From assembly GCA_022865485.1 (NCBI GenBank), contig JALHSZ010000020.1, positions 1-62,237 of the forward strand: a stretch of DNA of 62,237 bases, in the 5' to 3' direction. The notes under the pieces are model-generated. The model was not told the origin of the DNA. It did no database searches and saw only the letters and a program-made list of their open reading frames with translations. Positions 6,853 to 61,992 of this stretch are shown in pieces. The position numbers and the translations under genes are program-made. Numbering within the stretch: position 1 is the stretch's first letter; every line of letters starts with the position of its first letter. This DNA comes from Dehalococcoidales bacterium. GTDB taxonomy: Bacteria; Chloroflexota; Dehalococcoidia; Dehalococcoidales; BS750m-G39.

Positions 6853-9324
6853 CTAAGCCAGCTCAACTTCCCCGCCACCCTGCCACACCCTAGATAGCTC
6901 TCTAGCCAGGGGAGCATTGGCGGGCTTTTTGAGACCGGGGTCTTGCTCGAAGATTTTGATTGCCTCGGCGCGGGCAAGTTCTAAGAGGGCGACGTCGGAG
7001 AGCTTAGCCATGCGCAGGTCGGGCAGCCCGCTCTGGCGGGTGCCGAAAAATTCACCAGGGCCGCGCAGCCTTAAATCTTCCTCAGCCAGCTGAAAGCCGT
7101 CCTGGACCTTTTCGATAATGTCTAAGCGCTCTCTGCCTATCTCCGACGGGTTCTCCGCCAGGAGCATGCAGTAGCTCTGCGCGCTGCCCCGCCCCACCCG
7201 GCCGCGGAACTGGTGCAGTTGCGATAAGCCGAAGCGGTCGGCGCTTTCCACGAGCATGACGGCGGCGTTGGGGACATCTATGCCCACCTCGACCACGGGC
7301 GTCGAAACCAGCACCTGCAGTTCCCCGGAGCGGAACTGGTGCATTACTTTGTCTTTTTCCACCGCCGACATCCGCCCGTGAATCAAGCCCAGTTTGAGGT
7401 CGGGGAAAACCTCACCGGAGAGGCGCTCGTATTCCGCCACCGCCGCCTTAGCCTGGATGACCTCGGATTCCTCAACCAGGGGGCAGATGATAAACGCCTG
7501 CCTGCCTTCGCTGACCTGGCGGCGCAGGAAGGCGTAGGCGCTATCGCGCTGCTCCGGCTTGAGCCACTTGGTCTTGACCGCCTGCCGGCCCGGGGGGAGC
7601 TCGTCGATGACGGAGAGGTCGAGGTCGCCATACAAAGTTAGGGCTAAAGTTCGGGGGATGGGGGTGGCCGTCATCACCAGGACGTGGGGGTTAAAGCCCT
7701 TCTGGCGGAGCGCCGAGCGCTGGGCGACGCCGAAACGGTGCTGCTCGTCGACCACGACCAGGCTAAGATTCTTAAAGCCAACCTCTTTCTGGATGAGGGC
7801 GTGGGTGCCGATAATGATATCTATTTCGCCGGCGGCGATTTGCTGCTGTATTGCCTGCTTCCGTGCCTGTTTCAGGTCGCCAATAAGCAGCGCCACGGTA
7901 AGCGGGTGGTCCAGGATTCCGGAGTAAGTGCGCCGGTTTTCTTCTTCGGCTATCTGCTGGCCGGCTCGGGACAGGAGCTGACCGACATTAGTGAAGTGCT
8001 GCTCGGCCAGTATCTCGGTGGGGGCCATGAAGGCGCCCTGACAGCCGTTGGCGGCGGCAACGAGCAAAGCCGCCGTCGCCACCACCGTCTTGCCGCTGCC
8101 CACCTCGCCCTGAAGCAGGCGGGACATCGGTATCGCTCTCTCTAAATCGGCTAAGAGTTCCTTGAGCACCTTTTGCTGGGCGGCGGTCAGCTCGAAGGGC
8201 AAGGATTTCAGGAAAGCGCCAAGGGAGGCGGGGTGGGGGCTGAGGGGATTGCCCGGCTGGCTCTCCTGCCACTCGTGTTTTTTAGCCAGCACCCCCAGCT
8301 GCAGGATAAAGAGTTCGTCGAAGGCGAGGCGGTGGCGGGCGTTGTTTTTAGCCGTCTCGTCCTCGGGGTAGTGCGCCTGGACGATTGCCCGGGGCAGTTC
8401 CAGCAGCTTGCAACGTTCTCTCAGTTCCGGGGGCAGGAAGTCTTCGACCTGCCCCGACCAGCCGTCGACCACCCCTTTCATCAGCTTTCTCACCTGGCGG
8501 GGCTTTAGCCCCTGGGTTAGAGGATAGAGAGGCACCAGGCGCCCGGTATGGACTAATTCCCTGTCTTCCAGCAGTTCCCATTCCGGGGACTCGAAGACAT
8601 GCCGCCCGCCGAAGAGGCGCACCCGGCCGCTGATGACTACCTGAGCGTTGGTGGGCAGGCTCTTGGCGACATAGGGGTTGTTGAACCAGACCACCCTGAC
8701 GTTGCCCGTCTCGTCGCCGACGATGGCCTCGGTGCTGCGCCTGCCCCCCAGCCTGGTTTCCTGAGCCTGCCAGACGTTAGCCATAATGGTCTGCTCCTCG
8801 CCCTCGCTAAGCTCAGAGATGTATTTGCGCTGGCTGTAGTCGAGGTGGCGGTGGGGGAAGAAGTAGAGCAGGTCGCGGATGGTCTTGACCCCCAGGCGCT
8901 CGAACTTAGCCGCCATCGCCGCGCTCACCCCCTTGAGGACGGTGATGGATGCCTCCAGCGAGCCGCCGACTATTTTCTGAGCCTTTGCTGAAGAAGTACG
9001 CTTTCGGGGGGCGGGGGGACTAACGCTCGGGGGAGGCATAATCTCAACCTTTTCGGCGGGCATCCCGCCGAGTTCGGAGAGAAAGCTGATTATTTCTTCT
9101 ATCCAGCGCTGGCGGTGGGGCTGGGTCATCGCGGAGTATTTGGAGTCGTCGAGGCGCAGGCGGCGGAATTGGGCCAGGAGGTGGGGGGTGGTTACCGATT
9201 CTATTGCCTGTCCCGACCAGCGGTGCAGAAACCTGTCCAGACCGCCGATGACGGCCGAATCGGTGTAACCCTTTTCCCGCTCTAACTCCAGAATCTTGCG
9301 CAGAGACTCGATATTCAGCGCCAA
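6853..9324 (-). CDS. recG: ATP-dependent DNA helicase RecG
   Basis: A monomeric superfamily 2 helicase that remodels stalled forks and Holliday junctions. After a long N-terminal extension comes the wedge/OB domain, then the helicase core with Walker A GEVGSGKT, box DEQHRFGV and motif VI QFRGRVGRG, then the C-terminal TRG region. About 823 residues, longer than the E. coli protein because of the N-terminal helical segment, as in other Chloroflexota. The TTG at 9324 is chosen because GGGGGAGAG lies just upstream; a TTG at 9345 would start inside that site. It is the last gene of the fakA-degV-recG run. Confidence 0.95.
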   Translation of the reverse strand: MALNIESLRKILELEREKGYTDSAVIGGLDRFLHRWSGQAIESVTTPHLLAQFRRLRLDDSKYSAMTQPHRQRWIEEIISFLSELGGMPAEKVEIMPPPSVSPPAPRKRTSSAKAQKIVGGSLEASITVLKGVSAAMAAKFERLGVKTIRDLLYFFPHRHLDYSQRKYISELSEGEEQTIMANVWQAQETRLGGRRSTEAIVGDETGNVRVVWFNNPYVAKSLPTNAQVVISGRVRLFGGRHVFESPEWELLEDRELVHTGRLVPLYPLTQGLKPRQVRKLMKGVVDGWSGQVEDFLPPELRERCKLLELPRAIVQAHYPEDETAKNNARHRLAFDELFILQLGVLAKKHEWQESQPGNPLSPHPASLGAFLKSLPFELTAAQQKVLKELLADLERAIPMSRLLQGEVGSGKTVVATAALLVAAANGCQGAFMAPTEILAEQHFTNVGQLLSRAGQQIAEEENRRTYSGILDHPLTVALLIGDLKQARKQAIQQQIAAGEIDIIIGTHALIQKEVGFKNLSLVVVDEQHRFGVAQRSALRQKGFNPHVLVMTATPIPRTLALTLYGDLDLSVIDELPPGRQAVKTKWLKPEQRDSAYAFLRRQVSEGRQAFIICPLVEESEVIQAKAAVAEYERLSGEVFPDLKLGLIHGRMSAVEKDKVMHQFRSGELQVLVSTPVVEVGIDVPNAAVMLVESADRFGLSQLHQFRGRVGRGSAQSYCMLLAENPSEIGRERLDIIEKVQDGFQLAEEDLRLRGPGEFFGTRQSGLPDLRMAKLSDVALLELARAEAIKIFEQDPGLKKPANAPLARELSRVWQGGGEVELA

Positions 9325-9350
9325 AGTTCTCTCCCCCCGATACAAAAGCG

Positions 9351-10190
9351 CTACCTGTCGCCCAGGATGGCTACCGCCAGAACGTGGGGGCCGACATGCG
9401 CCCCGACCGCCGGCGTGACCTTGAAGCGGAAGATGCGCTCGGCGGGAAACTTAGCGTTGAGCCGCTCCACCAGCGCGTCGGCTTCGTCCGGCGTAGTGCC
9501 ATCCCCTATGGCCAGTTCTTCAATACGGGAGAAGCTGTTAACAAAGTTACAGAGGTTTTCTATCGCCTTGGAACGGGAGTGCTCCCGACCCACGGGATAA
9601 ATCTCCCCGTCCTTGAGGCCGAGAATGGGGTTTATCTTGAGCATCGAGCCCAGCAGAGCCTGAGCCTTGCCGATGCGCCCGCCCCGCTCCAGGTATTTCA
9701 GGGTATCGAAAGCCATGCGCAGGTCTGCGCGGGGGATGTTGCGGCGGGCAACCTCTAGCACCTCGTCGAGGCTGGCGCCAGCTTTAGCCTCCCGAGCCGC
9801 CGTGATGACTATCAGCCCCTCGGACATAAGCGCCCAACTGGAGTCGATTATCTCTACGCGGGGTTTCTTTTTCGCCAAGCCTATAGCCTGCCGGGCGACT
9901 TCGCCGACGGCGCTGAGCTTGTGGGAGATGGTGATGACGGCGACTTCATCGGCTTCTTCCGCCAGCTTTTCGTAGGCGTCGACAAAGGACTGCGGAGTGG
10001 GCACCGAGGTGGTGGGGTGGGTCTTGTCGGTGGTTAATCTTTCGTAAAACTGCTCGGTGGTGAGGTCAACGCCGTCGCGGTAGACCTCTTCGCCGAAGCG
10101 AATCAGCGAGGGAATTATGGTAATCCCCAGTTCCTCGACCACAGCGGGAGGAATGCTCGCCGAGCTATCGGTGATAATCTTGACCGTCAT
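9351..10190 (-). CDS. DegV family fatty-acid-binding protein, copy 1 (FakB-like)
   Basis: DegV/FakB proteins bind a fatty acid and present it to the kinase FakA, which phosphorylates the carboxyl group. This 279-residue copy has all family landmarks: the N-terminal ITDSSASIP, the ligand-pocket segment PTTSVPTPQSF, ERGGRIGKAQ in the middle and VGAHVGPHV near the end. Its ATG overlaps the stop of nothing downstream; instead its own start overlaps the preceding DegV stop by four bases (10187-10190), indicating translational coupling. Fourth and last of the array in reading order, 26 bases before the recG start. Confidence 0.93.
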   Translation of the reverse strand: MTVKIITDSSASIPPAVVEELGITIIPSLIRFGEEVYRDGVDLTTEQFYERLTTDKTHPTTSVPTPQSFVDAYEKLAEEADEVAVITISHKLSAVGEVARQAIGLAKKKPRVEIIDSSWALMSEGLIVITAAREAKAGASLDEVLEVARRNIPRADLRMAFDTLKYLERGGRIGKAQALLGSMLKINPILGLKDGEIYPVGREHSRSKAIENLCNFVNSFSRIEELAIGDGTTPDEADALVERLNAKFPAERIFRFKVTPAVGAHVGPHVLAVAILGDR

Positions 10191-11035
10191 GACTTATCCT
10201 TATCTCCCATCACCGCCACCAGGAGGAGGCCGGGACCGGTATGTGTGCCAATGGCCGGGGTCATCCGGGAGCGGTAGATGCGCTCTGTGGGGAAGATGGC
10301 GCCCAGCCTCTCCCGAAGCGCCTCAGCCTCTTCGGGGCAGGCGGTGTCTTCCACCGCCATCTCCTCAATACGGGCATAGCTAGCGGCAAATTTATAGAGG
10401 TGGTTTATTGCCCTGGTGCGGGAACGGGTCTGGCCCGCGGGTTTGACCAGCCCGTCTTTGAGGGCGATAATGGGGTTTATCCTGAGCATCGAGCCCAGGA
10501 AAGCCTGCGCCCGCCCTATACGCCCACCCCTTCTTAAGTATTCCAGGGTATCGAAGGCAGCCCGAAAGTCAACGCGGGGGATGGTCTGGCGGGCGACCTC
10601 TATCACTTCATCGAGCTTAGCCCCTTCTTTAGCCGCCCGAGCCGCCTTCATGACGATGAAGCCCTCGGTCATGGTCGCCGTCTCGGAATCGAGCAGCTCG
10701 ACACGGCATTTTCGCTTCATCATCGCTATGCTCTGGCGCGCCACCTCGTAGGTGGCGCTGAGTCGGGCGGAGACGAGGATGACCAGGATTTCATCGGTCT
10801 TTTCGGATAGTTTATCGTAGACTTGAATGAAGTCGGCCGGCGCGGGCACCGAGGTGTTGGGGAAGACCTTGCTCGTTTTGAGCTTCTCGTAGAACTGGTC
10901 GGGGGTGATATCGATGCCGTCGTGGTAGACCTCGTCGCCGAAGCGGACGCTTAAAGGCACCACCGAGATGCCCAGCTCCTTAACCAGCTTGGTAGAGAGG
11001 TCAGCTACGCTATCGGTGATAATGCCGACTGCCAC
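10187..11035 (-). CDS. DegV family fatty-acid-binding protein, copy 2 (FakB-like)
   Basis: A 282-residue DegV paralogue, third in reading order. It has ITDSVADLS, the pocket segment PNTSVPAPADF, RRGGRIGRAQ and IGTHTGPGL, where the other copies have AHVGP. The differences in the pocket segment and near the C-terminal histidine are in the places expected to affect ligand choice. It starts with GTG one base after the previous stop and ends in a four-base overlap with copy 1. Confidence 0.93.
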   Translation of the reverse strand: MAVGIITDSVADLSTKLVKELGISVVPLSVRFGDEVYHDGIDITPDQFYEKLKTSKVFPNTSVPAPADFIQVYDKLSEKTDEILVILVSARLSATYEVARQSIAMMKRKCRVELLDSETATMTEGFIVMKAARAAKEGAKLDEVIEVARQTIPRVDFRAAFDTLEYLRRGGRIGRAQAFLGSMLRINPIIALKDGLVKPAGQTRSRTRAINHLYKFAASYARIEEMAVEDTACPEEAEALRERLGAIFPTERIYRSRMTPAIGTHTGPGLLLVAVMGDKDKS

Positions 11036-11036
11036 C

Positions 11037-11879
11037 CTAGCCTACCTCCCCGAGCACCGCCACATTCAGGACACGGGGACCGACATGGGCCCCGATTACC
11101 GGGCTTACCTTGGAGCGGTAGATATCCTCCTTGGGGAATTTAGTTCTGAGCCGCCCAACTAGCATCTCGGCTTCATCGGGGGTAGTGGCGTGTTCCACTG
11201 CCATCTCGTCAATGTGGGAATAGCCGGCGGCAAAGTCATACAGGTAGTCTATCGCCTTTGCCCGGGAGCGTTCCCGGGACGCGGGATAGACCTCGCCATC
11301 CTTTATGGTGAGGATGGGGTTTACCTTGAGCAGCGAGCCGAAGAAAGCCTGCGCCTTGCCGATGCGCCCGCCCCGCCTCAGGTACTCTAAAGTATCGAAG
11401 GCGATGCGCATATCCAGGCGGGGAATATTCTTTCTGGTCAGAGCTATCACCTCATCAAGGCCAGCCCCGCTATTAGCCGCCTTGGCGGCAGAAATAGCTA
11501 ACAAGCCCAGTGCCATAAGCGCCCACTGCGAATCAACCACCTCCACCCGGCACTTCCGCTTCATCTGGTCTACAGTCTGCAGCGCCACCTCATAGGTAGC
11601 ACTGAGCTTATGGGAGATAGTGATGACCAGGATTTGGTCTGTTTCCCCAGCCAGGTAGTCATAGGCTTGAGTAAAGGTTGCCGGTGATGGCCCCGAGGTG
11701 GTGGGGATGACCTTGCTGGCGACTATCATGGGGTAGAACTGGTCGGTGGTCAGGTCGATGCCGTCACGGTAGGAGTCGGCGCCGAAGTGAACATAAAGGG
11801 GCACTACCGTAATCCCCAGCCCTTTAGCCACCTCGACGGGCAGGTCGGAGGTGCTGTCGGTGACAATCTTGACCGTCAA
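11037..11879 (-). CDS. DegV family fatty-acid-binding protein, copy 3 (FakB-like)
   Basis: A 280-residue DegV paralogue, second in reading order. It carries VTDSTSDLP, the pocket segment PTTSGPSPATF, RRGGRIGKAQ and IGAHVGPRV. It begins two bases after the stop of copy 4 and ends one base before copy 2, so all four copies are packed as one translational unit. Confidence 0.93.
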   Translation of the reverse strand: MTVKIVTDSTSDLPVEVAKGLGITVVPLYVHFGADSYRDGIDLTTDQFYPMIVASKVIPTTSGPSPATFTQAYDYLAGETDQILVITISHKLSATYEVALQTVDQMKRKCRVEVVDSQWALMALGLLAISAAKAANSGAGLDEVIALTRKNIPRLDMRIAFDTLEYLRRGGRIGKAQAFFGSLLKVNPILTIKDGEVYPASRERSRAKAIDYLYDFAAGYSHIDEMAVEHATTPDEAEMLVGRLRTKFPKEDIYRSKVSPVIGAHVGPRVLNVAVLGEVG

Positions 11880-11881
11880 CG

Positions 11882-12724
11882 CTACCCCCTGTCCCCGAGC
11901 ACGGCTACCCCCAGCACCCGGGGGCCGACATGCGCCCCGATTACCGGGCTTACCCTAGAGAGATAGATACGCGTTTTGGGGAATTTAGCCTTCAGCCGCC
12001 TAATTAACGCCTCGGCCTCATCAGGAGTTGTGGCATGCTCAACCCCCATCTCTTCAACATGGGAAAAGCCGGTGGCGAACTCGTAGAGATGGTCTATGGC
12101 TCTAGCCCGGGAGTGTTCCCGGACAAAGGGGAAAGCCTCGCCGTCCTTTATGCCCAGGATAGGGCTTACCTTGAGCATCGTTCCCAGAAAAGCCTGTGCC
12201 TTGCCGATGCGCCCACCCCTCCTCAGATACTCCAGGGTGTCAAAAGCCATGCGGACATCGGCGCGGGGAATATTCTCACTAACCAACTCCAGCACCTTAT
12301 CCAGCCCAGTCCCATCCCGGGCAGCTTTAGCCGCCGCGATAACTATCAAACCCTGCGCCAGAATTGCCGATAGGGAATCAATCACCTCCACCCGGCACCG
12401 GCGCTTCATCCGCTCCTTAGCCAGGACGGCGGTTTCATAGCTGGCGCTGAGCTTGTGGGAATTGGTAATGACGGCAATCTGGTCGGTTTCTTCGGCCACC
12501 TTGTCATAGGTATCGGCGAACCTGCCCAAAGGGGGCACAATGGTAGTGGGAAAGATTTTGCTGGCCTCCAGTTTATCGTAGAACTGGTCGGTGGTCAGGT
12601 CAACGCCATCGCGGTAATTTATGGTACCGAAGATGACGTTTATCGGGATGACCGTAATCCCCAGCTCTTCAGCGACCCCGGAGGGTATGTCACCCAGACT
12701 ATCGGTGACGATTTTAACTGTCAT
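11882..12724 (-). CDS. DegV family fatty-acid-binding protein, copy 4 (FakB-like, divergent pocket)
   Basis: A 280-residue DegV paralogue, directly after fakA. RRGGRIGKAQ and IGAHVGPRV are kept, but the pocket segment reads PTTIVPPLGRF, so the TS-x-P serine of the other copies is isoleucine and the following SP/TP/AP pair is changed. Its ligand may differ, or binding may be altered. The ATG at 12724 follows GAGGGT; the frame is open to 12751 but that part overlaps the end of fakA. Ten bases separate it from fakA. Confidence 0.92.
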   Translation of the reverse strand: MTVKIVTDSLGDIPSGVAEELGITVIPINVIFGTINYRDGVDLTTDQFYDKLEASKIFPTTIVPPLGRFADTYDKVAEETDQIAVITNSHKLSASYETAVLAKERMKRRCRVEVIDSLSAILAQGLIVIAAAKAARDGTGLDKVLELVSENIPRADVRMAFDTLEYLRRGGRIGKAQAFLGTMLKVSPILGIKDGEAFPFVREHSRARAIDHLYEFATGFSHVEEMGVEHATTPDEAEALIRRLKAKFPKTRIYLSRVSPVIGAHVGPRVLGVAVLGDRG

Positions 12725-12734
12725 AGCTGACCCT

Positions 12735-14369
12735 CTACTCCACGGAGACAATATAGTTATAGTAAGGCTGACCGCCTTGAACTACCTCAACCTGAATCTG
12801 GGGGTGCTGCTTACCGAGGGTGCCGCCGACCTCTTCCGCCTCAGCCGAAGTGGTGTCGTCCCCGTAATAGATGGTTATTACCTCAGCCGTGTCCAGCTTC
12901 ACCCGCCCCAGCACGTCCTGAACTACGGCGGCAGGACTGTCGCCCACCGCCACCAGGTCGCCATTGAGAAAGCCGATTGCCTGATGCTTTTTAATGTCCA
13001 GCCCGCCCAGACGCGTCGAGCGCACCGCCCGTGTGACCTCGATGGACTTTACCGCCGCTCTCGCCTTGTTCATGTTCTGGGCGTTGGTTTCCATATCGGC
13101 CTCGTAGTCGAAAGCCAGCAGCGCCGCCACGCCCTGGGGGATGGTGGTGGTGGGAACGACTTCGATGGTTTTTTCGGTCAGGGACTGCACCTGGCTGGCG
13201 GTGAGCACGATATTTTTATTGTTGGGCAGGATAATGACCTTTTCCGAAGTCACCGCCTCGACAGCCTGGAGCAGGTCTTTGGTGCTGGGGTTCATCGTCT
13301 GCCCGCCGGGAACGACAAAGGTCGCCCCCAGGCTGGTGAAAACGTTAGCCAAGCCCTCGCCGACCACTACCGCCACAATCGCCACCGCGACGGCGGGCAT
13401 TCTCTCTTTTTGCATCTCGATGAAGTCATGGTACTGCTCGTCCATATTGCGGATATTTATCTGGTGCAGGGTGCCGAGGGGGACGACATAGCTCATGATG
13501 TCGCCAGGGTCGAGGGTATGAATGTGAACCCTGACCGCGGAGTTATCGCCAACGACGATTACCGATTGACCGCGCTTTTCCAGCCGCTTGCGGAGCTTGT
13601 CGGGGTCGAGCTCCTCGCCCTTGATGACAAAGTTGGTGCAATAGCCGTAGGGGACTTCTTCCACGCCCACCATCTGGGGGGATTTGGCGGTGAGGGGGAC
13701 GCTGCTAGCCACCATCCAGGGTCGGCGTAATTTAAGCTGTTCCATCTCGCCTTTGAGGTAGTGGAGGACGCCTTCCAGTATGGTGTAAAGGCCCTGCCCG
13801 CCCGCATCCACCACGCCCGCTTCCATCAGTACGGGGAGGAGGGTGGGGGTCTTAGCCACCGATTCCTTGGCGGCGTTGGCCGTGGCTTCGATGACCGAGA
13901 CCACGTCATCGCTGACGGTGGCGGCGTGCGCCTGGGCGGCTTCCGCCGCCTCTCGAATCACGGTAAGGATGGTGCCTTCCACGGGGTTGCTTAAGCCCGC
14001 GTAAGCCACCGACGACGCCTTGGCTAAAGCGTCCGCCAGTTCCTTGCCGGTAACGGCGTCTTTGCCGTCCAGAGCCTGGGATAAGCCGCTGAAAATCTGG
14101 GACAGGATGACGCCGCTGTTGCCCCGCGCCCCCACCAGCGCCCCTTTAGCCATAGCCTTGGCTACTCTGGAGGCGCTGTGGTCGTCAGCCATCTGGGATT
14201 CCTCCACGGTGGAGCGCATGGTGAGCAGCATGTTGGTGCCGGTATCGCCGTCGGGCACCGGGAAAACGTTGAGGGCATCGATATCGGCGGAGCTTTTTTC
14301 CAGCCAGCTAGTAGCGGCGGCGAACATTTCCCGCAAGTCCTGACCGTTGATAGACTTGGTTGGCGCCAT
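12735..14369 (-). CDS. fakA: Fatty acid kinase catalytic subunit (DhaL/YloV family)
   Basis: A 544-residue FakA/YloV protein. The N-terminal DhaL (DAK2) domain binds ATP and Mg; NVFPVPDGDTGTNM (residues 34-47) holds the metal-binding aspartates and GARGNSGVILSQ (about 79-90) is the second signature. A middle domain follows, then a DegV-like C-terminal domain. It phosphorylates fatty acids carried by FakB/DegV so they can enter phospholipid synthesis. It heads a minus-strand run of four DegV genes and recG and is divergent from rpmB, which mirrors the Bacillus order rpmB, yloU, yloV, recG. Confidence 0.92.
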   Translation of the reverse strand: MAPTKSINGQDLREMFAAATSWLEKSSADIDALNVFPVPDGDTGTNMLLTMRSTVEESQMADDHSASRVAKAMAKGALVGARGNSGVILSQIFSGLSQALDGKDAVTGKELADALAKASSVAYAGLSNPVEGTILTVIREAAEAAQAHAATVSDDVVSVIEATANAAKESVAKTPTLLPVLMEAGVVDAGGQGLYTILEGVLHYLKGEMEQLKLRRPWMVASSVPLTAKSPQMVGVEEVPYGYCTNFVIKGEELDPDKLRKRLEKRGQSVIVVGDNSAVRVHIHTLDPGDIMSYVVPLGTLHQINIRNMDEQYHDFIEMQKERMPAVAVAIVAVVVGEGLANVFTSLGATFVVPGGQTMNPSTKDLLQAVEAVTSEKVIILPNNKNIVLTASQVQSLTEKTIEVVPTTTIPQGVAALLAFDYEADMETNAQNMNKARAAVKSIEVTRAVRSTRLGGLDIKKHQAIGFLNGDLVAVGDSPAAVVQDVLGRVKLDTAEVITIYYGDDTTSAEAEEVGGTLGKQHPQIQVEVVQGGQPYYNYIVSVE

Positions 14370-14477: not shown

Positions 14478-14669
14478 TTGAAGTGTGATTTATGCGGCAA
14501 AACACCGATGTTCGGCCATAATATAAGCCACTCCAAACGCCACACCAACCGGAGCTGGATACCTAATATTCACCCCGTCACCATCACCATAGACGGCAAG
14601 ACGAAACGGATGAACCTCTGCACCCGATGCCTGCGCACCCAGCACAAGACGGCTAAGACACAGACCTAA
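14478..14669 (+). CDS. rpmB: 50S ribosomal protein L28
   Basis: A 63-residue L28 of the zinc-binding type: CDLC at residues 3-6 and CTRC at about 48-51 would hold the metal. SKRHTNRSWIPN is the typical rRNA-contact core. The start is TTG with AAAGGAGT at 14463-14470 at good spacing. Divergent from fakA, as in Firmicutes and other Chloroflexota. The last 17 bases overlap the 3' end of rpe on the other strand. Confidence 0.96.
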   Translation: MKCDLCGKTPMFGHNISHSKRHTNRSWIPNIHPVTITIDGKTKRMNLCTRCLRTQHKTAKTQT

Positions 14670-15318
14670 GCTCATCCAGAGCCTCTTTTACCGTTTGCCC
14701 CGAAGCGAAGACAGCCGCCCCCGCCACCAGAACCCTTGCCCCCGCCTTAACGACTTTTGGCGCAACTTGAGCGTTGATGCCCCCATCCACCTCCAGCTCG
14801 GCAGTCAAGCCTTTTTTATCCAGCTCGGCGCGCAGTTTAGCTATTTTATCCAGCGTCGCTTCGATGAAGGGCTGGCCGCCGTAGCCGGGATTGACCGTCA
14901 TCACCAGGACTAAATCTAACGAGGGCAGGATTGCGCTTATGGCGGTGAGGGGGGTTTCGGGGTTGAGCGACACCCCCGCCTTTACCCCCAGGCTTTTGAT
15001 TACCGAGATGAGCTGCCGGACATTGGGGCAGGCTTCGATGTGGACGGTGATGATGTCGGCGCCGGCCTCGGCGAACTGGTTAATCTGCCTTTCGGGGGCT
15101 TCGATCATAAGGTGGACATCCAGGGGTAAATCGGTCCATTTGCGAATAGCCGCCACCACCGGCGCGCCGATGGTTATGGGAGGGACGAAATGCCCGTCCA
15201 TGACATCGACGTGGATATAGTCGGCGCCGGCTTTGGTGGCTGCGGCGACCTGCTCGCCGAGACGGGCGAAGTCGGCGGAGAGGATGGAGGGGGCCAGCTT
15301 CACCTTTGGGCTAGCCAC
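14653..15318 (-). CDS. rpe: Ribulose-phosphate 3-epimerase
   Basis: A 221-residue TIM-barrel enzyme that interconverts ribulose 5-phosphate and xylulose 5-phosphate in the pentose phosphate pathway. Signatures are LAPSILSADFARLG, HVDVMDGHFVPP with the metal ligands, VHLMIEAPE, MTVNPGYGGQ and EVDGGIN. The GTG start lies inside the end of argH (eight-base overlap), so it is the last gene of the arginine operon. The 3' end overlaps rpmB. Confidence 0.96.
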   Translation of the reverse strand: MASPKVKLAPSILSADFARLGEQVAAATKAGADYIHVDVMDGHFVPPITIGAPVVAAIRKWTDLPLDVHLMIEAPERQINQFAEAGADIITVHIEACPNVRQLISVIKSLGVKAGVSLNPETPLTAISAILPSLDLVLVMTVNPGYGGQPFIEATLDKIAKLRAELDKKGLTAELEVDGGINAQVAPKVVKAGARVLVAGAAVFASGQTVKEALDELRSVS

Positions 15319-16690
15319 TCTTGGCTCCGAGCGATTTCTTGGCGGCAGCTAAAGCCTTAGCCACCCGTTTGGGGGCGGTGCCGCCGATAACGTCGCGGGC
15401 GGCGAGTGATGATTCTATCGTTATAGAAAAGACGTCGTCTTGGAACAGGGGGGAGAACTTTTTGTATTCGGCCAGGGTGAGCCCGGAGAGGGGTTTATTC
15501 TTTTCTATAGCGTAGCTCACCAGCTTGGCTACCGCCTCGTGGGCGGCGCGGAAAGGCTTGCCCTTTTTGACCAGATAATCGGCCAGGTCGGTGGCCAGAA
15601 TATAGCCACTGTCAAGGGCTCGACGGGCGTTTTCGGCATTTACTTTAACGGTCTTGAGCATGCCGGTGAAGACCTCAAGGGTGGAGAGCAGCGTTTCCAC
15701 ACTGTCGAAGAGGGCTTCTTTATCTTCCTGCAGGTCGCGGTTATAGGCGAGGGGCAGGGCTTTCATCGTGGTCAGCTGCGCCATGAGGTTGCCGTAGACC
15801 CGACCCGTCTTGCCCCGCGCCAGCTCGGCGACATCGGGGTTCTTCTTCTGGGGCATGATGCTGGAGCCGGTGGCGTAAGCATCGTCGAGCTCGATGAAAT
15901 TAAACTCGGCGGAGGACCAGAGGACAAGCTCCTCGGCTAATCTCGAGAGATGCATCATGCAGAAGCTCGCCGCCGCCTGGTATTCCAGGACGAAGTCCCT
16001 ATCCGAGACGGCATCCAGGCTGTTACGGCTTATGGCATCGAAGCCGAGCTCTTTGGCGACAAACTCACGGTCGATATCGTAGGCGACGCCAGCCAGTGCG
16101 CCGCTGCCCAGGGGCATGACATCGGTGCGCTTAAAGCAATCGCTAAAGCGCTCGCTATCGCGGCTTAGCATCTCGAAATAGGCTAAAAGATGGTGCGCCA
16201 GCAGGACGGGCTGCGCCGTCTGGAGGTGGGTATAGCCGGGGATGACGACCGCTTCGTTGGCTTCGGCCAGGGTGATAATTACCCGCTGCAGCTCTTCGAG
16301 CTGAGCCAGCGTGGTGGTGATGGCGTCGCGGCTAAAGAGGCGCAGGTCGAGAGCCACCTGGTCGTTGCGGGAACGGGCAGTATGGAGCTTGCCCCCCACC
16401 TCCCCAATCATTTCGATGAGGCGGGCTTCGATATTCATGTGGATGTCTTCCAGCTCCGACCGGAAGGTAAACTCGCCCTGCTCTATCTCGCGCTGAATCG
16501 CCGTCAATCCGTTGACGATAGTTTCGGCGTCTTTATCGGGGATGATGCCCTGCTTGGCCAGCATGCGGGCGTGGGCGATACTGCCGGCGATGTCATAGGG
16601 ATAGAGACGCCAGTCGAAGGGAACGGAGGTGGTGTAGGCGTTTACCAGTTTATCCGCCTTTTTCTTAAAGCGACCTCTTATATGGCTCAT
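15311..16690 (-). CDS. argH: Argininosuccinate lyase
   Basis: A 459-residue member of the fumarase/aspartase superfamily that splits argininosuccinate into arginine and fumarate. TARSRNDQ at 104-111, PGYTHLQTAQP at about 151 and the signature loop GSSIMPQKKNPD at 275-286, with the catalytic serine, are all present. It overlaps argG by four bases (ATGA) and rpe by eight. Confidence 0.97.
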   Translation of the reverse strand: MSHIRGRFKKKADKLVNAYTTSVPFDWRLYPYDIAGSIAHARMLAKQGIIPDKDAETIVNGLTAIQREIEQGEFTFRSELEDIHMNIEARLIEMIGEVGGKLHTARSRNDQVALDLRLFSRDAITTTLAQLEELQRVIITLAEANEAVVIPGYTHLQTAQPVLLAHHLLAYFEMLSRDSERFSDCFKRTDVMPLGSGALAGVAYDIDREFVAKELGFDAISRNSLDAVSDRDFVLEYQAAASFCMMHLSRLAEELVLWSSAEFNFIELDDAYATGSSIMPQKKNPDVAELARGKTGRVYGNLMAQLTTMKALPLAYNRDLQEDKEALFDSVETLLSTLEVFTGMLKTVKVNAENARRALDSGYILATDLADYLVKKGKPFRAAHEAVAKLVSYAIEKNKPLSGLTLAEYKKFSPLFQDDVFSITIESSLAARDVIGGTAPKRVAKALAAAKKSLGAKSG

Positions 16691-22737: not shown

Positions 22738-23550
22738 ATGCCGAGACCATTAAAAATCTTAAAAGGTATTATTAAGGAAGACCCCTCTGTTACTAGCGAT
22801 AAAATCAGCAATTTGCTTGGCGAAACCACAGCAATATCTGATGAGGCTCTTACGCATTTAGCAACATGTCTCAGTTTTTTACTCGAGAAAGACCGCGCAA
22901 GCAAAGCTGACCAGAGCATCGTTGATCTCGGAGTTCGCTTTTGGAATGACACCATAGCAGCTAATATACTCATACGCCAGGGGCTTATCCTCAATGCTAT
23001 GATGATGGAGAGAGATGCTATAGAAACTAGAGTTGTAGCAGAATACTTACATGAATATCCAGGAGACGCTGAAGCTTGGCAGAAAGCTGAGTCTTACAAA
23101 GAAAGACGTCGCTTTGGTATAAATGAACTGAAAGATAAGGTGGAAGAGGGTGAAGCCTTGAAAGACATCTGGGATTGGTTATCAAGTTATATTCACCCTA
23201 ATGATAAAGCGAGGCCTGTCTATTCAAAGAGCAGGCCATTTTTCGGACATAATCTATATCTAGGTGGTTTCTATGAACCAATGCCCACAGCTACTTTCTT
23301 CTTGATGCAGTTAGCCATTTGTATCAACTTCTTAGATACTATTTATAACTGGTATAAAGATGATTTGCTATTTCCTGAGGGACTGCCTAAAAAAATAGAG
23401 GTGCTAGAAGAAGCATACCACAAACAAAAGGGTAAACTTGAAGGACGTGCAGATTCAGAGCACCAAAAAATGAAGGGCAAAATAGAAAAAACGAGATTAT
23501 CTAAAGAAGAAATCGTCAAGATGTTCCAGTCCCTTGATACACTGCCTTAG
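22738..23550 (+). CDS. AT-rich orphan protein, all-alpha, possibly HEPN-related
   Basis: A 270-residue soluble, mostly helical protein without signal or membrane signature; no firm family. The middle part (MMMERDAIETRVVAEYLHEY) contains R-X6-H and a second segment LSSYIHPN, which recall DUF5677-like and HEPN-type proteins, but the match is loose. The C-terminal 60 residues are a charged helix rich in K and E. Base composition is far more AT-rich than the genes on either side, which suggests transfer. Only a weak ribosome site (GGATGGATGA) precedes the ATG. Confidence 0.55.
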   Translation: MPRPLKILKGIIKEDPSVTSDKISNLLGETTAISDEALTHLATCLSFLLEKDRASKADQSIVDLGVRFWNDTIAANILIRQGLILNAMMMERDAIETRVVAEYLHEYPGDAEAWQKAESYKERRRFGINELKDKVEEGEALKDIWDWLSSYIHPNDKARPVYSKSRPFFGHNLYLGGFYEPMPTATFFLMQLAICINFLDTIYNWYKDDLLFPEGLPKKIEVLEEAYHKQKGKLEGRADSEHQKMKGKIEKTRLSKEEIVKMFQSLDTLP

Positions 23551-30484: not shown

Positions 30485-30578
30485 GTTTTGGGGGTAAACC
30501 AAAAAGATGGGCAAAGGGGTATAATGATTACAAGTAGCTATAAATAGATGCCTTTAAATTAGTGAGGAGGTGAGCAAG

Positions 30579-31430
30579 ATGAAAGTTACTGCTAAATTCA
30601 TATTCCAACTACCCTTCGCCCTCAAAATGAAAGAGGTGCGAAGTATCATGCCTAAACCTATCAAAAGAGAGGGCGAAGAGATAATCATATACCCGCCAGT
30701 GCATACAAAACATGATATGACCGAAAAACCATTCTGGCAACTTAAAACCCCGAAACCCCGTAAAACTCAACTTGATAAGCTAAACTGCTTCGTCATTGAT
30801 ATAAGGAGAGATTTCCAGAATTTCAAACAGGCAGAAGAAGCCTCAGGAGAACTGTTACTAAAAGCCAGAGAAATCTTATATCAACTTCTAAACCTGTGTA
30901 GAAAAAGAGAAATACTACACATAGGTAATATAAACGTAGAAAAATTGGGATACAGGCGAAGGTTTTTCGATGCAAATGGAAACATACTTACAGCCACAGG
31001 ACAGACTAATCTAACACTTCCGACACCACCATTCGCAAGTAGCAAGTGGGCCGATATTTGCCAAGACCTAGCCTCTGGCAACTTACCTGAAATTTATGAG
31101 ATTCTCATTTTAGATGCGAAAAATGTGGTGTCTAGCGAGCCACGCCGCGCTGTCTTAGATGCCTCAACAGCAAGTGAAGTGTTCATCAAACGCTTCTGCA
31201 AATCTAAGAGCAGACGTGAGTCAGCAATAAAATCGTTGTGGGAAAATAAGCCAGAACTCCTCAAAGAGCTTGACTACCTAAGAAGAACTAATATTTCTGT
31301 TAAACACGAGGGTAAGTGTCAATACAGAAATTGTGAAGGTGAGCTTAAACAAGTTGACTCACAGCAGGCTTGCGAATTCATCAAAGCAGTTGAAGATGCT
31401 ATGCAATATACAAAATCACTTACCTGCTAG
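30579..31430 (+). CDS. AT-rich orphan protein with HEPN-like C-terminal part
   Basis: A 283-residue soluble protein, AT-rich against its surroundings and not recognised as a whole. The C-terminal third has helical segments around LRRTNISVKHEG, an R-X6-H arrangement, followed by a final helix (FIKAVEDAMQY). This layout is like HEPN domains, which are often RNases in defence or toxin systems. The ATG at 30579 follows GAGGAGGT with seven bases spacing; a GTG at 30570 overlaps the site. TATAAT at 30520-30525 is a probable -10. Its own promoter and odd composition suggest transfer. Confidence 0.55.
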   Translation: MKVTAKFIFQLPFALKMKEVRSIMPKPIKREGEEIIIYPPVHTKHDMTEKPFWQLKTPKPRKTQLDKLNCFVIDIRRDFQNFKQAEEASGELLLKAREILYQLLNLCRKREILHIGNINVEKLGYRRRFFDANGNILTATGQTNLTLPTPPFASSKWADICQDLASGNLPEIYEILILDAKNVVSSEPRRAVLDASTASEVFIKRFCKSKSRRESAIKSLWENKPELLKELDYLRRTNISVKHEGKCQYRNCEGELKQVDSQQACEFIKAVEDAMQYTKSLTC

Positions 31431-61401: not shown

Positions 61402-61992
61402 ATGACTTGGATTAGTCCACATTTTCAGGACATAGATTTTCCTTCAGGTATGTCGCTAGACCAGAAGATTGAGGTCTTTGCAGACCGCGTGACAGGATGG
61501 CAATTGGATATAGCGCAACAGTGTGCCGATAATATTCCCCACTCTGGTTTCGCAGCCTTACATATTTTGTGCAGCTACTTCGAAATGATAGCAAAATTCC
61601 AGGACGGATATACCAAAAATGATAAGTCTGAAACATATTTTCGTAAAGGCTTCTACTCTGTTTTCCCAAACTTAATTAATAATTACTCAAGACAAGTTTC
61701 AGATGGCTTTTTGAAGAAATTATATAAGGATGTTAGGTGTGGGCTTTACCATGCTGGTATTACAGGGCCTAACATATGGCTTTCTGGTGACTTCCCCAAC
61801 GCTATTGAGTTTGAACTAGCTAACGAGACAATCCACATCAATCCACACAAGTTAGTACCTGCCATTAAGCAGCATTTTCAGTCTTATGTTCGAGAACTTC
61901 GCGACTATCGAAACCAACAGCAACGAAATAACTTTGAAACACGATTTGGGAAGCTTGGCAAAGGAGAAAATCGCCCCGAAACCCCTAATTAA
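61402..61992 (+). CDS. AT-rich orphan, HEPN-like protein
   Basis: A 196-residue, mostly helical soluble protein, AT-rich against mfd. It contains KDVRCGLYHAG, an R-X4-H motif like the active site of HEPN ribonucleases, preceded by a helix with FAALHILCSYFEMIAKF. Similar proteins of unknown function are scattered in many bacteria. The ATG follows GGAGGGAGGTG; TATAAT at 61362-61367 overlaps the mfd stop. It has its own terminator, so it is a self-contained gene unit. RNase activity and any defence role are inferences. Confidence 0.65.
   Translation: MTWISPHFQDIDFPSGMSLDQKIEVFADRVTGWQLDIAQQCADNIPHSGFAALHILCSYFEMIAKFQDGYTKNDKSETYFRKGFYSVFPNLINNYSRQVSDGFLKKLYKDVRCGLYHAGITGPNIWLSGDFPNAIEFELANETIHINPHKLVPAIKQHFQSYVRELRDYRNQQQRNNFETRFGKLGKGENRPETPN

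Follow-up and report, generated by a model that had tools for sequence, protein, structure and literature searches.

A FakAB fatty-acid kinase locus with a fourfold carrier expansion in a Dehalococcoidales bacterium

Known FakAB systems and the locus compared with them

The FakAB literature that we found deals with Gram-positive bacteria, mostly Firmicutes, and the literature searched contained no treatment of the DegV/FakB proteins of Dehalococcoidia. In S. aureus several DegV-family carriers, FakB1 and FakB2, serve one kinase, FakA. FakB1 holds the fatty-acid carboxylate via Thr62, Ser95 and His270, with Ser171, and a bulkier residue at Ala158 in its acyl tunnel altered ligand packing (PMC8892158). 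Arg173 is required for catalysis (PMC8892158, PMC9136124). Arg205, described as completely conserved (PMC8892158), mediates docking of FakB to both FakA and the membrane; membrane binding is weakened by the substitutions R205A and R205E, FakA binding by R205E (PMC8892158, PMC9136124). The key residues of FakA, including a C-terminal Glu contacting FakB Arg205, have been described as well (PMC9136124). E. faecalis possesses one FakA with four FakBs, which overlap broadly in preference (PMC12594616) and whose specificity was predicted by neither sequence nor model (PMC12288450).

The window analysed here is a stretch of 62,237 nucleotides from an uncultured Dehalococcoidales bacterium (contig JALHSZ010000020.1). 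It contains a real and well-preserved FakAB fatty-acid kinase locus with a lineage-specific fourfold expansion of the carriers, which are expected to bind fatty acids and act with FakA. As in S. aureus, several DegV-family carriers accompany one FakA, and the catalytic residues of FakA, the carboxylate network of the carriers and Arg173 are the same. Unlike in S. aureus, four linked carriers lie right behind fakA, they score below the FakB1 equivalog cut-off, two of them have His at position 205, and the host belongs to a different phylum. The number of carriers per kinase equals that of E. faecalis, with overlapping roles likely (PMC12594616, PMC12288450); however, a similarity network groups the E. 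faecalis FakBs with distinct FakB types (PMC12288450), whereas those of the window stand in tandem and descend from one ancestral gene. The FakAB system itself is a well-known membrane-lipid system, present here in a large local version that is notable mainly for His205 in D1 and D4, where it replaces the reported principal contact residue for FakA. The features of the locus and its flanks are as follows.

6853..9345, minus strand: recG, conserved downstream boundary of the array (NF008168, 1012 bits, above cut-off; synteny)
9351..10190, minus strand: D4, DegV/FakB-type carrier (PF02645, 3.2e-76; conserved sites; model and PDB matches)
10187..11035, minus strand: D3, DegV/FakB-type carrier (PF02645, 3.6e-80; conserved sites; tree)
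11037..11879, minus strand: D2, DegV/FakB-type carrier (PF02645, 3.2e-79; conserved sites; tree)
11882..12724, minus strand: D1, DegV/FakB-type carrier, 280 aa (PF02645, 4.6e-73; conserved sites; model and PDB matches)
12735..14369, minus strand: fakA/yloV, fatty acid kinase catalytic subunit, 544 aa (TIGR03599, 611 bits; catalytic residues)
14478..14669, plus strand: rpmB, ribosomal protein L28, divergent from fakA (PF00830, 1.4e-22; synteny)
14653..15318, minus strand: rpe, upstream neighbour, also present in many relatives (PF00834, 2.5e-80; synteny)
15311..16690, minus strand: argH, upstream neighbour (named from sequence and synteny; matches stand at the same place in nearly all relatives of the order)

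Layout of the array and identity of its products

The carriers are named in order of transcription, which runs fakA, D1, D2, D3, D4, recG. Stop-to-start gaps measure 2 nt between D1 and D2 and 1 nt between D2 and D3, and D3 and D4 share a 4-nt ATGA overlap. The listed open reading frame of D1 (11882–12751) opens with a TTG at 12751 inside fakA; the start is most likely the ATG at 12724 instead, 10 nt past the fakA stop. To judge from this tight spacing, fakA and the four carriers are probably carried on one transcript. The first-pass annotation had described four DegV/FakB paralogues packed tightly behind fakA, and the four complete reading frames, Pfam matches and spacing bear it out. Its motif strings, TIVPPL (D1), TSGPSP (D2), TSVPAP (D3) and TSVPTP (D4), were quoted correctly, and the GGRIG and HxGP motifs occur in all four copies. 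An assembly artefact was judged unlikely: mis-assembled repeats would not differ as much as these copies do, and syntenic orthologues of D3 and D4 stand in the same-genus locus L038. Neighbour-like GC content by codon position, along with conserved synteny, ruled out a foreign or phage island.

All four carriers match the DegV family PF02645 (246–270 bits, E 5e-73 to 4e-80) and TIGR00762 (278–301 bits) above the curated cut-offs. Against the FakB1 equivalog NF038249 they reach 145–167 bits, under its curated cut-off of 350 bits, and they are not classed as FakB1. AlphaFold models of D1 and D4 have mean pLDDT values of 84.7 and 85.3, respectively, and their best PDB matches are DegV/FakB structures, many with bound fatty acids (TM 0.75–0.87). 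The models are least confident around residues 165–195, which include the region that moves when FakB1 docks to the membrane. For D1 and D4, structure prediction, which had been proposed as a check, returned folds like those of fatty-acid-bound FakBs and not misfolded chains. Family matches, conserved sites and these models together support the earlier identification of the locus as FakAB.

FakA matches the YloV family TIGR03599 over its full length in a profile search (611 bits, cut-off 396) and scores 477 bits against the S. aureus-type equivalog NF038248, below its cut-off of 975. By these profile scores it is classed as a YloV-subfamily FakA outside the narrow S. aureus-type equivalog. The nucleotide and Mg residues are all present (Asn32, Asp38, Asp40, Thr41, Asn82 and Asp185 in S. 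aureus numbering), as are Cys240-His282-His284 and the C-terminal Glu548.

Origin and divergence of the copies

We read the fakA neighbourhoods of most of 60 relatives and of further genomes of the phylum. Wherever the contig extends to rpmB, this gene is divergent from the main fakA; the rpmB/fakA pair occurs throughout the Chloroflexota, in most cases followed by degV and recG. The Bacillus neighbourhood, with fakA/yloV near recG and rpmB close by, is similar. The difference from its yloV-recG-rpmB arrangement is that degV genes lie inside the fakA–recG gap, a Chloroflexota feature among the genomes read. A hand-made tally of this gap, covering the relatives within the order and three added genomes, gave 48 neighbourhoods reaching recG, with 0, 1, 2, 3 and 4 degV genes in 5, 16, 16, 7 and 4 genomes, respectively. 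Four copies occur in the window and in three genomes of a single genus, g15 (G018, G054 and G100; loci L048, L049 and L110), and the largest array outside the order has three (G068). Four degV genes are thus the top of the normal range in this order, and the view of the array as a departure from the usual one to three copies calls for correction.

Several relatives carry a second fakA elsewhere (L100, L101, L102, L103, L104, L105, L106 and L083); in three of these (L102, L103 and L104) the second fakA has a strongly diverged degV on its upstream side instead of downstream.

Trees of the array proteins resolve three deep clades, A, B and C, and in G031, G040 and similar genomes the genes between fakA and recG follow the order A-B-C. 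D1–D4 all fall into clade B (support 100/99): all four carriers expanded by duplication in this lineage from one ancestral slot-B gene. The g15 arrays of G018 and G054 consist of three clade-A genes and one clade-C gene (G100 was counted but stands outside the tree), and four-gene arrays therefore arose independently at least twice. Arrays in at least two genera have thus expanded from different ancestors. The earlier proposal of array growth within an ancient rpmB/fakA/recG locus is supported by both the phylum-wide synteny and the clade-B tree. The suggested phylogeny likewise shows the four proteins as diverged members of one clade apart from FakB1: S. aureus FakB1 groups with B. subtilis DegV on a branch separate from every Chloroflexota gene in the tree, which was built without S. 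aureus FakB2.

Within clade B, D3 is orthologous to the ordinary slot-B gene, and its L038 counterpart is syntenic. D4 is shared with L038, where it is syntenic and 92% identical. The D1 group is found throughout this family, with kin in two other families, and the tree does not place the window D1 as sister to the first gene of the same-genus loci. No orthologue of D2 occurs in the same-genus loci read, one of which (L039) is partial. The clade-C gene of the same genome lies on a separate contig (C17), and the assembly, which is 88% complete, yielded no clade-A gene.

Pairwise identity among D1–D4 is 53–66%, so that they are not recent duplicates; near-identical copies, named earlier as the finding that would speak against the proposal, are excluded. 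Comparison with same-genus genes gave dN/dS of 0.13–0.23 for D1, D3 and D4, values indicating that these copies have been kept as proteins. Since mutual identity is 53–66% and dN/dS lies well below 1, the array is not a chance feature. D1 and D2 share 72–80% of amino acids over the last 120 codons and 52–65% over the first 160, which hints at possible gene conversion, but codons 161–200 are more alike in most pairs.

Binding site, docking residue and the reason for four carriers

Alignment places equivalents of Thr62, Ser95, Arg173 and His270 in all four carriers; the Ser171 position is Gly, as in B. subtilis DegV. The first-pass annotation had taken the T-S-x-P segment for a pocket that differs between ligand classes. 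This reading needs revision, as the segment belongs to the carboxylate clamp and not to the site of the acyl tail, and its Thr is kept in all four copies. The key Thr is near-invariant across the order (Thr in 80 of 83 rows from relatives, Ser in the rest), the position after it is free in clade B (Ser, Ile, Ala, Gln or Leu), and variation at the two positions following Thr is usual within the family. Such variation is therefore no sign by itself of ligand classes. The FakB1 Ala158 position, occupied by Val (D1), Met (D2), Phe (D3) and Leu (D4), appears to be a better candidate for chain selectivity; the other tunnel position checked, Ala121, is Ala throughout.

At the residue equivalent to FakB1 Arg205, D2 and D3 keep Arg and D1 and D4 have His. 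His205 is present in eight of nine D1-group members of the family and in both full-length D4 rows, never in clade A and once among 22 clade-C sequences. The tree shows three changes to His, but a single clade is not rejected by an AU test that includes G003_1 (p 0.31). The change need not mean loss of function, because His may stay positively charged and an Arg two residues further on is kept. Nevertheless, with Arg205 replaced, D1 and D4 may not serve FakA as well as D2 and D3. The Arg205-to-His change, overlooked earlier, bears on whether the four carriers supply the kinase to the same degree.

A further substitution pattern concerns clade A (30 genes, e.g., in L058, L074 and L048), in which the His270 position is Tyr in 28 and Ser in two, and the Arg209 position is Ala in all 30. 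In sequence terms this is a second, clade-wide change in a putative FakB binding site.

We consider it rather likely that this FakAB locus, with one FakA and four slot-B-derived carriers likely expressed from one transcript, is kept for a division of labour. Each carrier would take a free fatty acid from the membrane, grip its carboxylate by the Thr62-Ser95-His270 network and offer the fatty acid to FakA for phosphorylation. The resulting acyl-phosphate would be used by PlsY-type acyltransferases in phospholipid synthesis or by PlsX for transfer to ACP. The slot-B gene between fakA and recG was duplicated in this lineage, with purifying selection keeping the copies distinct. The likeliest reason for having four would be partly overlapping acyl preferences set by the tunnel residue (Val, Met, Phe or Leu), together with altered docking of D1 and D4 to FakA or the membrane via Arg205-to-His.

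A stricter specialization, with one distinct acyl class per carrier (by length, branching or unsaturation) and all four feeding FakA equally, is conceivable but doubtful. The copies do differ at the tunnel position, as S. aureus FakB1 and FakB2 differ in their ligands and the E. faecalis FakBs partly do (PMC8892158, PMC12594616), and analogy with E. faecalis makes separate ligand classes plausible, if weakly supported. However, the segment on which the proposal was built clamps the carboxylate and does not line the tail tunnel, the E. faecalis FakBs overlap broadly (PMC12594616), sequence and models failed to predict their specificity (PMC12288450), and the absence of Arg205 from D1 and D4 fits poorly with equal service to the kinase. 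We regard it as unlikely that dosage explains the array, with mostly redundant copies coming and going in a duplication-prone locus. Copy number does range from 0 to 4 among relatives, the same-genus loci read have no counterpart of D2, their first gene is not the sister of D1, and a shrunken degV remnant survives elsewhere in the genome; yet deep divergence at low dN/dS and the stability of sites within sub-groups speak against this.

Two readings start from His205, and both seem improbable to us. D1 and D4 could be DegV lipid carriers that have ceased to act with FakA and have turned to fatty-acid transport, storage or another partner. Most of their orthologues share His205, and the S. aureus substitutions impair membrane binding (R205A, R205E) and FakA binding (R205E) (PMC8892158, PMC9136124). 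Against this, all four retain Arg173, which is required for the kinase reaction only, His can carry a charge, the Arg two residues on is retained, and the genes adjoin fakA. A similarly low probability attaches to D1 and D4 as a new carrier subtype with weaker or pH-dependent docking to FakA or the membrane, in which two carriers would feed the kinase and two would hold fatty acids or route them elsewhere.

Whatever the reason for four, the order, with 0–4 carriers at the same locus, amounts to a natural experiment on the retention of several FakBs for one FakA in bacteria. The window itself supplies four natural paralogues differing at the tunnel position and the kinase-docking residue, and His205 in two of them allows a clean test of whether the carriers of one operon serve the kinase equally.

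Host genome

The host assembly comprises 1.19 Mb; its nearest named relatives are the "Dehalococcoidia bacterium" metagenome-assembled genomes L038 and L039, with FakA identities of 92% and 88%, respectively. Single-family searches of this genome found seven full degV genes (four in the array and one each on C17, C29 and C36), one fakA, one plsX, seven plsY-family hits, one PF01553 (plsC-type) hit and fabF. With plsX, plsY and a PF01553 acyltransferase encoded, an acyl-phosphate produced by FakAB would have its usual takers; the cell probably also makes its own fatty acids. The seven plsY-family hits (PF02660; contigs C32, C44 and others) compare with a mean of 4.4 in 61 relatives, and across 61 genomes the degV and plsY counts were not significantly correlated (Spearman 0.19, p 0.14).

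A short open reading frame on contig C36 (L149:2093-2313) encodes the beginning of a DegV protein joined in frame to its end, and it directly precedes an intact degV; it is apparently a degV gene with a large internal deletion. Elsewhere in the window, the genes at 1297-2398, 22738-23550, 30570-31430 and 61402-61992 have a third-position GC of 0.30–0.39, against about 0.78, and match no Pfam family above cut-off; they are probably recent arrivals.
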